Below, one piece after another: positions 36,056 to 40,514 of a DNA stretch of 64,000 nucleotides. The position numbers and the translations under genes were made by a program. Origin of the DNA: Pseudomonas sp. (GTDB lineage: Bacteria > Pseudomonadota > Gammaproteobacteria > Pseudomonadales > Pseudomonadaceae). Within the stretch, counting starts at the first letter, position 1. Each line of letters starts with the position of its first letter. A model generated the notes under the pieces. The model ran no database searches. It saw nothing but the letters and a program-made list of their open reading frames with translations, and was not told the DNA's origin. The DNA lies in assembly GCA_007713455.1 (NCBI GenBank), contig VMRT01000009.1, positions 310,001-374,000 of the forward strand, written 5' to 3'.

Positions 36056-37252
36056 ATGACCCTGCCCAGCCTGCGCCTCAAAGCCAATGCCGATCGCCGC
36101 CTGCGCGCCGGCCATCTGTGGGTCTACAGCAACGAGGTGGACACCGCGGCCACGCCGCTGGCGGGCTTCGCCGCCGGGGATCAGGCCGTGCTCGAAGCCG
36201 CCGGCGGCAAGCCGCTGGGCATCGTCGGGGTATCGCCGAACAACCTGATCTGCGCACGCCTGCTATCGCGCGATCTCAAGCACAGCCTGGATAAGTCATT
36301 GCTGGTGCATCGCATCCAGGTCGCGCTGTCGTTGCGTGATCGCCTGTTCGATCAGCCGTGCTACCGCCTGATCTATGGCGATTCCGATCTTCTGCCGGGT
36401 CTGGTGGTGGACCGCTTCCACGATCATCTGGTGGTGCAGCTGGCCTCCGCCACCATGGAGCGCAACAAGGATGCCGTGCTGGAGGCGTTGGTCCAGGTGC
36501 TCAAGCCCCGCGGCGTGCTGTGGAAGAACGACTCCAGCGCCCGCGATGCCGAAGGCCTGGAGCGTTACGTCGATACGGCGTTCGGCGTATTGCCGGAGTG
36601 GGTCGCGCTGGAAGAGAACGGCGTGAAGTTCGAGGCGCCGGTGCTGCAGGGCCAGAAGACCGGCTGGTTCTACGACCACCGCATGAATCGCGCGCGCCTG
36701 GCGCCCTACGTGAAGGGCAAGCGCGTACTCGACCTGTTCAGCTACATCGGCGGCTGGGGCGTGCAGGCGGCGGCCTTCGGAGCCAGCGAAGTGTTCTGCG
36801 TCGACGCATCGGCCTTCGCCCTGGACGGTGTCGAGCGCAATGCCGCGCTCAATGGAGTGGCCGAGAAGATGACCTGCGTCGAGGGTGATGCCTTCGAGGC
36901 GATGAAGGAACTGAAGAACGCCGAGGAGCGCTTCGACGTGGTCATCACCGACCCGCCGGCCTTCATCAAGCGCAAGAAGGACATCAAGAACGGCGAGGCC
37001 GCCTACCGTCGCCTCAACGAAGCCGCGATGCGCCTGCTCAACAAGGACGGCATCCTGGTCAGCGCCAGCTGCTCCATGCACCTGGAAGAAGATCACCTGC
37101 AGAACATCCTGCTCGGCAGCGCACGCCATCTGGACCGCAATATCCAGCTGCTCGAACGCGGCGCCCAGGGCCCGGATCATCCGGTGCACCCGGCGATCCC
37201 GGAAACCCGCTACATCAAGAGCCTGACCTGCCGCATCCTGCCCAACAGCTGA
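36056..37252 (+). CDS. RlmI-like 23S rRNA cytosine-C5 methyltransferase
   Basis: The 398-residue protein has an N-terminal PUA-like domain (about 1-75, LRLKANADRRLRAGHLWVYSNEV), an EEHEE-type middle and a class I methyltransferase domain: GKRVLDLFSYIGGWGVQAAAFGA, VFCVDASAFALDGVERNAALNG, and VITDPPAFIKRKKD. A conserved SASCSMH lies near 345, with the catalytic cysteine. This is the RlmI/YccW pattern (m5C1962 of 23S rRNA). A TAGAAT -10-like box at 36021-36026 and CGGAG before ATG support a gene-specific promoter. Confidence 0.87.
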   Translation: MTLPSLRLKANADRRLRAGHLWVYSNEVDTAATPLAGFAAGDQAVLEAAGGKPLGIVGVSPNNLICARLLSRDLKHSLDKSLLVHRIQVALSLRDRLFDQPCYRLIYGDSDLLPGLVVDRFHDHLVVQLASATMERNKDAVLEALVQVLKPRGVLWKNDSSARDAEGLERYVDTAFGVLPEWVALEENGVKFEAPVLQGQKTGWFYDHRMNRARLAPYVKGKRVLDLFSYIGGWGVQAAAFGASEVFCVDASAFALDGVERNAALNGVAEKMTCVEGDAFEAMKELKNAEERFDVVITDPPAFIKRKKDIKNGEAAYRRLNEAAMRLLNKDGILVSASCSMHLEEDHLQNILLGSARHLDRNIQLLERGAQGPDHPVHPAIPETRYIKSLTCRILPNS

Positions 37253-37328: not shown

Positions 37329-38177
37329 CTACTCGATGCCCTTGCGCTGATCGCTCCACAGCAGGCTGGTGCACAACCCGCAGAAACGTCCGTAGAAGGT
37401 GCCACGCGCACTCTCGTCGTCCATCAGGTGATAACGGAACCAGGCCGTCGTCGGTCCGCGATAGGCCCCGCCATCACCCACCGGCTCGAAGTGGCTGACA
37501 TAGCGCCTTTCCCCCCAGAAGATCGGCACATTGGCGCGGGTATAGACCGGCTGCGCATTCAGATAGGGGATGGCGATCGTGTCGGCACCGCCGGACATCA
37601 GGAACATCGGCCCGCGCTGGTTGCGCTGCGACGATGAGTCATGGCCAAGACCGATGGTGTACGGCTGGATCGGCGCGGTGACCTTCACGCGATCATCCTG
37701 CCCGGCCATGATCGAGCCACCGCCGCCCTGGGAATGGCCCGATGTGGCGACCCGTCCGGTGTTCAGCACGCCGACGTAGGTGCCGTAGGTGCGATTGCTT
37801 TCCTGCACCAGGTAGTCGAGGCAGGCAAGCATGTCTCGCCCGGTGCCGGCGTTGGAGGTTTCCGCCGCGGCCACCACGAAGCCATGGCTGGCCCAGTGGG
37901 TCAGCAGCCCGGAATAGGTCGTCGGCCCGGTGCCGGTGCCATTACCCCACAGAATGATCGGGTGCCTGACACCGTTCTGGCCCAGCGTGCGTGGCCGGAA
38001 CACGCGGCAGCTCGGCCCCTCGCTCTGGCTGGTGACGGCGTAGGGGCCGGAACTGTCGAAGCTCGAAACCGAGGGAAATGGTGTCCCGGGCGTATCCGGT
38101 AGGGGGGCAGCGACGGCGGTTGCGGATAGGGCCACCAGAGCAGCGGCGCTCAGGTATCGGCGTGTGAACTTGTGCAT
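37329..38177 (-). CDS. Secreted cutinase (polyester hydrolase), P. mendocina type
   Basis: The 282-residue precursor has a signal peptide cut before APLPDTPG. The mature chain closely resembles the P. mendocina cutinase, known for cutin and polyester (PET) hydrolysis: GPYAVTSQSEGPSCR, HPIILWGNGTGTGPTTY, HWASHGFVVAAAETSNAGTG, the elbow GHSQGGGGS, and ERRYVSHFEPVG. Ser149, Asp199 and His229 of the precursor become 126, 176 and 206 after cleavage at residue 23, the triad numbers I recall for that enzyme. Cys266/Cys269 near the C-terminus (FCGLC) may form a disulfide. ATG 38177 fits the AGGA six bases upstream; ATG 38183 is too close. It appears inserted between the rlmI-like gene and ilvD. Confidence 0.88.
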   Translation of the reverse strand: MHKFTRRYLSAAALVALSATAVAAPLPDTPGTPFPSVSSFDSSGPYAVTSQSEGPSCRVFRPRTLGQNGVRHPIILWGNGTGTGPTTYSGLLTHWASHGFVVAAAETSNAGTGRDMLACLDYLVQESNRTYGTYVGVLNTGRVATSGHSQGGGGSIMAGQDDRVKVTAPIQPYTIGLGHDSSSQRNQRGPMFLMSGGADTIAIPYLNAQPVYTRANVPIFWGERRYVSHFEPVGDGGAYRGPTTAWFRYHLMDDESARGTFYGRFCGLCTSLLWSDQRKGIE

Positions 38178-38675
38178 CTGCATTCCTCATTCTTATCGTT
38201 GGTATAAGGACGCCTCACTCATCACCAGCTGCCCGCTACTCCGCAAAACGGGCACTCATGGCGAGGCGACCGCTCGCTGGTCAGCGGCACGACAAGGTGC
38301 AATCACCAGCGAAACGGTCGGGAATGGACTGTAGCGAGCGATCCTTGACCCGCCAGCCAAGTGGACGGGCGGTCACGCCCGGAAAACACCTGCCAATTCG
38401 CTGGCAAAACCTCCTGCCCAGCGGCGCCGGCCGGCTGGCATGCGGTATAGCGCAGCACCGGCAATCGTCCTGCCTGGCCCGAGCACAGGAACGTGCGTAG
38501 AATCGGTGATATCTCGCCATTCACCACACGGCGACCACTGAGCCCAGGCCCTACGAGCGTCTACCCGCCTCGACCCGGCCCCTTCCGAACGCACGGTCAC
38601 CCTCCGTTGCATCCGGCACAGGCGTTGCTCACCATATGCATACCTCCGATTACCTGATTAGCCGCAGGAACCGTC
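38178..38675. other. 498-bp gap without a gene, between cutinase and ilvD
   Basis: No credible reading frame was found. It holds the upstream region of the cutinase (a TTATAC-like -10 at 38202-38207, minus strand, with no good -35). Small inverted repeats are GCCCG-N13-CGGGC from 38231, CGGGCG-N4-CGCCCG 38366-38381 and TGCCA-N6-TGGCA 38391-38406. A TAGAAT -10-like box on the plus strand lies at 38498-38503. No branched-chain-rich leader peptide or T-box pattern was recognised before ilvD. Confidence 0.5.
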
Positions 38676-40514
38676 ATGCCCGATTACCGTTCGAAAACCT
38701 CCACGCACGGCCGCAACATGGCCGGCGCCCGCGCGTTGTGGCGCGCCACCGGCATGAAGGATGAAGACTTCAAGAAGCCGATCATCGCCATCGCCAACTC
38801 CTTCACCCAGTTCGTGCCCGGCCACGTGCACCTGAAAGACCTGGGCCAGCTGGTCGCCCGCGAGATCGAAAAAGCCGGCGGCGTGGCCAAGGAATTCAAC
38901 ACCATCGCGGTCGACGACGGCATCGCCATGGGCCACGACGGCATGCTCTATTCGCTGCCTTCGCGCGAGATCATCGCCGATTCGGTGGAGTACATGGTCA
39001 ACGCGCATTGCGCCGATGCCATCGTCTGCATCTCCAACTGCGACAAGATCACCCCCGGCATGCTGATGGCCGCCCTGCGCCTGAACATCCCGGTGGTGTT
39101 CGTCTCCGGCGGTCCGATGGAAGCCGGCAAGACCAAGCTGGCCAGCCACGGCCTGGACCTGGTCGACGCCATGGTCATCGCTGCTGATGAAAGCGCCTCG
39201 GACGAAAAGGTCGCCGAATACGAACGCAGCGCCTGCCCGACCTGTGGCAGCTGCTCCGGCATGTTCACTGCCAACTCGATGAACTGCCTGGCCGAAGCCT
39301 TAGGGCTAGCCCTGCCCGGCAACGGCTCGACCCTCGCTACGCACAGCGACCGCGAACAGCTGTTCCTGCGCGCCGGCCGCACCATCGTAGAGCTGTGCCA
39401 GCGCTATTACGGCGAGGGCGACGAATCAGTCCTGCCGTGCAACATCGCCAGCCGCCGCGCGTTCGAAAACGCCATGACGCTCGATATCGCCATGGGTGGC
39501 TCGACTAACACCATCCTGCATCTGCTGGCCGCCGCTCAGGAAGCCGAGGTCGACTTCGACCTGCGCGCCATCGATGCCCTGTCACGCAAGGTTCCGCAGC
39601 TGTGCAAGGTCGCGCCGAACATCCAGAAGTACCACATGGAAGACGTGCACCGCGCCGGCGGCATTTTCTCCATTCTTGGTGAGCTCGCCCGTGGCGGCCT
39701 GCTGCACACCGACGTCCCCACCGTGCACAGCCGGACGCTTGCTGAAGGCATCGCGCAGTGGGACATCACCCAGACCCAAGACGAAGCGGTGCACACCTTC
39801 TTCAAGGCCGGCCCGGCCGGTATTCCGACGCAGACGGCATTCAGCCAGTCGACCCGCTGGGACACCCTGGACCTCGACCGCGCCGAAGGCTGCATTCGCA
39901 GCGTCGAGCATGCCTATTCCCAGGAAGGCGGCCTTGCCGTGCTTTACGGCAACATCGCCCTTGACGGCTGCGTGGTGAAGACCGCCGGCGTGGACGAATC
40001 CATCCATGTGTTCGAAGGCACGGCCAAGATCTTTGAAAGCCAGGACAGCGCCGTCAAAGGCATCCTCAATGACGAGGTGAAGGCTGGCGACATCGTCATC
40101 ATTCGCTACGAAGGCCCGAAAGGCGGCCCGGGCATGCAGGAAATGCTCTATCCGACCTCGTACCTGAAGTCCAAAGGCCTGGGCAAGGAGTGCGCCCTGC
40201 TCACCGACGGCCGTTTCTCCGGCGGCACCTCGGGCCTGTCCATCGGCCACGCCTCGCCGGAAGCGGCTGCGGGCGGCGCCATCGGGCTGGTGCAGGACGG
40301 CGACAAGGTGCTGATCGACATCCCCAACCGCAGCATCCAGCTGCAGGTCAGCGATGAAGAACTGTCCCACCGCCGCATCGAGCAGGACAAGAAAGGCTGG
40401 AAACCCGCCCAGCCGCGCACCCGCAAGGTGACCACGGCACTCAAGGCCTACGCCCTGCTCGCCACCAGCGCTGACAAGGGCGCGGTACGCAACAAGGCGA
40501 TGCTGGACGGCTGA
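38676..40514 (+). CDS. ilvD: Dihydroxy-acid dehydratase IlvD
   Basis: This 612-residue iron-sulfur enzyme makes the 2-oxo acids in valine and isoleucine synthesis. Signatures are [29 protein letters not shown] (cluster cysteines) and the late [42 protein letters not shown] is the usual N-terminus. AGGAACC precedes ATG 38676. It is a single gene ending at a strong terminator. Confidence 0.97.

Follow-up and report, generated by a model that had tools for sequence, protein, structure and literature searches.

A 64,000-nucleotide stretch of Pseudomonas sp. DNA (here called the window) carries, between a gene for an rlmI-like RNA methyltransferase and ilvD, an open reading frame whose product resembles the polyester-hydrolysing cutinase of P. 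mendocina. This raises two questions, namely what kind of enzyme the gene encodes and for which natural substrate, and whether the gene has interrupted an otherwise conserved gene order. The features on which the analysis relies are the following.

36056..37252, plus strand: rlmI-like RNA methyltransferase, convergent neighbour (NCBIfam RSP_2647_MTase 334 bits, cut-off 600; RlmI 234 bits, cut-off 712)
37329..38177, minus strand: cutinase / type III PETase-class alpha/beta hydrolase gene, 282 aa (208/258 identical to PDB 2FX5; Pfam PETase 48.2 bits)
37491..37493, minus strand: codon of catalytic His206 (alignment to 2FX5)
37581..37583, minus strand: codon of catalytic Asp176 (alignment to 2FX5)
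37725..37739, minus strand: GHSQG nucleophile elbow with Ser126 (Ser invariant in 53/53 aligned copies, the window's included)
38109..38177, minus strand: signal peptide, codons 1-23, cleavage before APLP (2FX5 chain from ORF residue 24; AVA at -3 to -1)
38178..38675, no strand: region between cutinase start and ilvD, 498 bp (no sigma-70-type site by consensus scan)
38183..38188, minus strand: GAGGAA, likely ribosome-binding site with a 5-nt spacer to the ATG, kept in relatives
38676..40514, plus strand: ilvD, dihydroxy-acid dehydratase, divergent neighbour (NCBIfam PRK12448 1180 bits, cut-off 710)

The gene and its product

The coordinates first given for the gene proved exact; they came without a strand, and the frame is on the minus strand, running from an ATG at 38177 to a stop that ends at 37329 (282 codons plus stop). 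A second in-frame ATG lies two codons upstream, at 38183. Because two relatives (L011 and L012) lack this upstream ATG, yet both retain GAGGAA and the ATG at 38177, translation likely starts at 38177 rather than at 38183. The bases immediately 5' of this ATG, TCCTTATACCAA...AAGAA.GAGGAA, are well conserved among close relatives (L003, L005-L013). In the 498-bp region that separates the cutinase gene from ilvD, a consensus scan returned no sigma-70 promoter and a hand-written pattern no sigma-54 match on either strand, and a search for RNA elements between 37200 and 38800 gave no Rfam match at E <= 0.1. The ~150-190 bp directly 5' of ilvD (window ~38492-38675) are conserved also in genomes without the cutinase, 12 of 28 rlmI-ilvD stretches from such genomes giving blastn matches 154-190 bp long; this segment looks like ilvD's own leader or promoter.

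A phmmer search of PDB sequences placed 2FX5, the P. mendocina cutinase (PmC), first (E = 7.5e-149, 498 bits), and ORF residues 24-281 align with its residues 1-258 without a gap, 208 of the 258 positions being identical (80.6%) and 50 different. The HaloPETase-like entries 9hl5, 9k0h and 9w68 rank next (392-393 bits), and below them come LCC and other PET hydrolases with at most 55 bits (LCC 4EB0, 44 bits). Three Pfam families match at E <= 0.001: PETase (PF12740) with 48.2 bits against a cut-off of 28, PAF-AH_p_II (PAF acetylhydrolase, PF03403) with 28.4 bits, above its cut-off of 20, and Chlorophyllase with 22.4 bits, below its cut-off of 26; no NCBIfam model reached its cut-off. Neither a dienelactone hydrolase or lipase family nor the fungal-type cutinase family is among the three Pfam matches. 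In the dienelactone hydrolase family the nucleophile is a Cys, unlike the Ser found here. The concern that the best match might turn out to be a dienelactone hydrolase or lipase of low identity was not realised, as 2FX5 came top with PF12740 above its cut-off; that the product is such an enzyme, with a merely superficial resemblance to a cutinase, can be dismissed for practical purposes, both by the order of the PDB matches and by the absence of either family from the Pfam matches.

Since the 2FX5 chain starts at ORF residue 24, this residue is number 1 of the mature protein, and the triad is therefore S126, D176 and H206; 2FX5 carries identical residues at these positions, and the numbering 126/176/206 of the original prediction is correct. 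Measured against the features of type III PETases (Turak 2025; accessible parts of PMC12442448 and PMC13396203) and of PmC cutinases, the elbow and triad are present as H125-S126-Q127, D176 and H206. Subsite I has the Thr/Gln/Tyr set without an aromatic clamp, as T58, Q127 and Y150, and F207 is also present, as in type III PETases. The five-residue insertion of loop 3 reads G153-L-G-H-D157, as in PmC and R75estA, and cysteines 34, 96, 243 and 246, the only ones in the mature chain, fit the expected two disulfides, the bonds themselves being predicted. Triad, cysteines and subsite I residues are the same in PmC and HaloPETase1. The marks of type I/II PETases, a Met after the nucleophile and a Trp in subsite I, are absent, with Gln127 and Tyr150 in their place. 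When 53 copies from the fetched loci (the window's own included) were aligned together with 2FX5 and 9HL5, positions 58, 96, 125, 126, 127, 150, 176, 206, 207, 243 and 246 were invariant, while 59, 60, 64 and 157 varied; Cys34 differs in one aligned copy only, the one with a stop there. These results support the view that the predicted product is a P. mendocina (PmC/2FX5)-type cutinase with intact triad, disulfide cysteines and signal peptide.

The protein is probably secreted. Tat export was considered and rejected, as close relatives do not all keep the twin arginine of the signal peptide (RL replaces RR in L116-L118); since the pair varies in this way, we infer export by Sec. Both GspD (the type II secretin) and GspE are found above NCBIfam cut-offs in the window's genome, on different contigs. 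Release by type II secretion is possible, the route being a guess on account of these separate contigs.

Proposed function and natural substrate

We propose that the gene encodes an exported serine cutinase (polyesterase), and as regards enzyme class and chemistry we estimate the probability of this reading at about 0.93. The Sec signal peptide would direct export, with type II secretion possibly taking the protein out of the cell; two disulfides would form, Cys34-Cys96 and Cys243-Cys246, with the pairing taken from papers on relatives. Esters would be cleaved by the Ser126-His206-Asp176 triad, with an oxyanion hole made by the backbone amides of T58 and Q127 (likewise taken from papers on relatives), in a substrate cleft that is predicted to be open and to lack an aromatic clamp. 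The natural role would most likely be to break down natural polyesters and lipids, for instance cutin, judged by analogy, and action on PCL and PET would then be a side activity.

Activity of the protein on cutin, PCL or PET is expected from its relatives, for which it is described in the accessible parts of three papers (PMC8971842, PMC12442448, PMC13396203). PCLase I of P. hydrolytica was able to degrade crude cutin, PCL, PBS, tributyrin and olive oil but left PLA and PHB intact (PMC8971842, text available in part); R75estA acted on pNP esters, olive oil, PCL, BHET and PET microparticles (according to the available portion of PMC13396203). Together with 2FX5 as best match and PF12740 above its cut-off, these activities favour the gene as a real candidate for the breakdown of cutin or synthetic polyesters, as was originally suggested. 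For cutin as the main natural substrate, a claim made by analogy, we consider the chances about even.

The alternative that survives best keeps the enzyme class and changes the job: a general secreted lipase or esterase for triglycerides and lipid esters, for which cutin and polyesters are incidental in nature. It overlaps our preferred explanation, the sole difference being the natural substrate, and we regard it as a tentative but serious possibility. Relatives cleave olive oil and tributyrin too (PMC8971842, PMC13396203, both in part), and the family occurs in many records whose title names Halopseudomonas, a lineage called marine in the accessible text of PMC12442448, for which land-plant cutin should therefore be scarce. 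The PAF acetylhydrolase family, moreover, scores above its cut-off (28.4 vs 20), so that the enzyme could act mainly on smaller lipid esters. Against this, PCLase I is active on cutin and lacks interfacial activation, as far as the accessible text of PMC8971842 goes, and tomato cutin induced the cutinase activity of Stutzerimonas sp. G.K.5.1, although the 49-kDa band seen in its supernatant is unlike our cutinase protein (PMC13407619, in the part available). Because this band compares with a calculated 27.8 kDa here, and because no gene is named in the accessible text, the activity in G.K.5.1 may belong to another enzyme.

A cutinase of this type also raises the question of whether the strain could use PET. 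The window's genome has one tannase-family match (L113, G000:C44:1415-2869; 372 bits vs a cut-off of 29.8), a protein of 609 aa from the first ATG, for which the top-ranking PDB entries are MHETases (E 1.2e-50 to 3.5e-50), followed by a feruloyl esterase at 2.1e-29. A PETase/MHETase pair is conceivable in the light of these matches, and a comparable set of PsP1 and the putative MHETase PsM1 has been proposed for P. stutzeri PS13 (PMC10947123, accessible in part). That the strain breaks PET down to monomers with its own enzymes, the exported type III PETase freeing MHET and L113 finishing the job, nevertheless strikes us as unlikely.

The rlmI-ilvD slot and its history

The cutinase gene sits alone, as described in the original prediction, being a single gene convergent with rlmI and divergent from ilvD. 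Among 56 congeneric genomes, rlmI was found in 54 and ilvD likewise in 54, the two others, G018 (73% complete) and G021 (71%), giving no match to either gene. Both flanks lie on one contig and in one orientation in 53 of these 54 congeners; in the exception, G010, they are on different contigs. A cutinase or a remnant of one is present in 27 of the 54, in every case (27/27) between rlmI and ilvD and on the opposite strand. This count consists of 26 genomes with a match over at least 253 residues and the remnant in G047; 30 of the 56 matched at E <= 0.001, and G036, G038 and G046 were left out, as they hold only a 32-33% relative. The rlmI-ilvD interval spans 1347-1486 bp in the 26, and 668 bp in G047, which has fragments; in the 27 congeners without cutinase it is 131-631 bp in 13, 2.2-17.6 kb in another 13, and split between contigs in one.

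It had been proposed that the gene interrupts a conserved rlmI-ilvD order. The conserved order was confirmed (53/54), but a local interruption was not, as half of the congeners (27/54) have the cutinase or its remnant at this place and 13 more have other DNA; comparison of the interval across congeners thus shows a common slot and not one disrupted in the window's genome alone. As all 27 congeneric holders and, on the ilvD side, all 10 holders from a second genus share this slot, the cutinase gene is a positional ortholog rather than an insertion peculiar to the window's genome.

Three of the 27 congeneric holders have broken copies: codon 57 of the G019 copy is an internal TGA; the match in G032 is split between two frames, with residues 30-282 in the first and 1-55 (48%) in the second; and in G047 two matching fragments are all that is left. 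A tblastn search of 28 stretches from the 27 cutinase-less genomes found no remnants at E <= 0.1; three weak matches (E 0.16-0.32) were taken as chance. Intervals without a cutinase can carry other genes (L048, L050, L051, L053, L101). When 10 ORFs from such intervals were scanned, 5 had a Pfam match at E <= 1e-5 (an MCP with PAS domains, an ABC transporter ATPase, two sensor kinases and a two-partner-secretion exoprotein), and the other 5 gave no match. Gene content at the slot apparently changes readily.

A family search at E <= 1e-60 found matches in 71 of 398 genomes and 3 of 19 genera: 26 genomes of the window's genus, 10 of a second, broadly drawn genus (g15, to which the P. mendocina group belongs) and 35 of a Halopseudomonas-like genus (g5). 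For the flank comparison the 10 g15 genomes were picked as holders, and 7 of the 35 g5 holders were sampled. In all 10 of the former the cutinase gene adjoins ilvD in the same divergent arrangement. Seven also have rlmI as the opposite neighbour; the remaining three, in which the retrieved 10 kb contain no rlmI, carry the copies most closely related to PmC. None of the 7 Halopseudomonas-like loci has an rlmI or ilvD flank. A general presence of the cutinase in the genus of the P. mendocina group is ruled out by a separate draw, in which 6 of 199 g15 genomes hold the gene (E <= 1e-60), so that it is rare there. Both flanks are found at 28 of 58 loci from named organisms, comprising 18 of the type of the window's genus (16 titled Stutzerimonas, 2 Pseudomonas) and 10 other Pseudomonas; at the other 30 (Halopseudomonas and others) neither flank is in the available DNA, with some loci ending at contig ends.

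Several further arrangements were observed. Three tandem copies of the cutinase occur at 4 of the 7 Halopseudomonas-like loci (L066, L068, L069, L070), at the rlmI-ilvD slot itself in one g15 genome (L065), and at the named loci L152, L153, L156, L160 and L162, of which L156 is the same contig as L068. Copies with 47-68% identity are found in records titled outside Pseudomonadaceae, such as Colwellia maritima, Polyangia, Caulobacteraceae MAGs and others (L163, L166-L170), where either wide transfer or mis-binned contigs are possible. A distant second relative, 31-33% identical over ~200 residues, is present in five congeners (G036, G038, G046 (L028-L030), G048, G055), and gave no match at E <= 0.001 in the window's genome.

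When 55 protein sequences were placed in a tree, the 26 copies from the window's genus grouped in a single clade with modest support (88/74), and the PmC clade stood next to it, joined by a fork that is also modestly supported (86/88). On a tree of rlmI, presence and absence of the cutinase require at least 11 changes, with the bootstrap not settled. G030 and G033 are outside the main clade of the rlmI tree, and are within the clade of G035, G032, G029 and G016 in the cutinase tree; this difference in placement speaks for some exchange by homologous recombination, which may have used the conserved flanks, while the broken copies point to some loss. One old placement would be the simplest source of the cutinase copies in both genera, because the slot is common to the two. 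Common inheritance with losses and spread by recombination both stand as readings, given that the gene is rare in g15, and on the same count we do not regard an ancestral presence followed by repeated losses as demonstrated.

A scenario in which the gene arrived recently and broke up a conserved rlmI-ilvD junction, perhaps in response to plastic, would be in keeping with the absence of the gene from 27 of the 54 congeners with both flanks, with the changes of presence on the rlmI tree and with its rarity in the second genus. We nonetheless hold it to be very improbable, considering the one slot and orientation in all congeneric holders, the ilvD flank common to all second-genus holders examined, the two flanks at 28 of 58 named loci, the single if modestly supported genus clade, and a GC content of 0.657 for the gene vs 0.652 for the window. 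Its third-position GC is 0.81, and four neighbour genes range from 0.79 to 0.86.

A fixed slot on the ilvD side in two genera, with half of the congeners lacking a copy and three copies broken, suggests that the genes for type III PETases may have belonged to the chromosome for a long time, retained for their action on natural polyesters or lipids, their use on plastics being a matter of chance.

Comparison with known relatives

The cutinase is a further sequence in a known, recently described group, and its genus is already represented by PsP1 and R75estA; it thereby adds a clean extra sequence to the type III PETases, a small set so far. The shared slot with its patchy occupancy is the sole part that we did not meet in the accessible portions of the prior literature: this history was not found in what was available of the Stutzerimonas papers on these enzymes, and the accessible text of the R75estA paper (PMC13396203) does not mention 'genomic context'.

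The protein is close to PmC (2FX5) in its gap-free identity over 258 residues, triad numbering and cysteines, and the closest kin of PmC share the ilvD flank. It differs by the 50 substitutions and in calculated pI, which is 9.0 for PmC vs 7.9 for the window's protein; for the three closest kin of PmC, the 10 kb retrieved around each contained no rlmI. The authors of PCLase I describe it as 100% similar to WP_004373894.1 of P. mendocina ymp and equate it with PDB 2fx5 (PMC8971842, accessible part).

R75estA and PsP1 were compared by their published descriptions (residues, length and percentage to PmC, from the accessible parts of the papers). R75estA, from Stutzerimonas sp. R75, was published in 2026 with 80.4% to PmC and a predicted Sec export (PMC13396203); it belongs to the same genus, and shares the triad 126/176/206, Cys 34/96/243/246, the loop-3 GLGHD and T58/G59/T60/H125/Q127/Y150/F207 with the window's protein, while having Ala64 where Thr64 is found here, a position that the same paper assigns to subsite II. 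PsP1 of P. stutzeri PS13, published in 2023 together with PsM1, is a predicted protein that likewise has 282 aa and a conserved triad, with 82% to PmC (PMC10947123).

HaloPETase1 (PDB 9HL5) and dsPETase05 have the same Thr/Gln/Tyr subsite I and two disulfides at equivalent positions. HaloPETase1 is more distant in sequence (175/254 identical to 9HL5), and the matched part of 9HL5 has a calculated pI of 5.5; the Halopseudomonas-like loci differ also in their missing rlmI/ilvD flanks (0/7) and frequent tandem triples (4/7). Type I/II PETases (LCC, IsPETase, PE-H) share the alpha/beta hydrolase fold and Pfam PF12740, but differ by the conserved Met after the nucleophile, where the window's protein has Gln, by an aromatic clamp and by disulfides located elsewhere, and the distance is reflected in 44 bits to LCC 4EB0 vs 498 to 2FX5.
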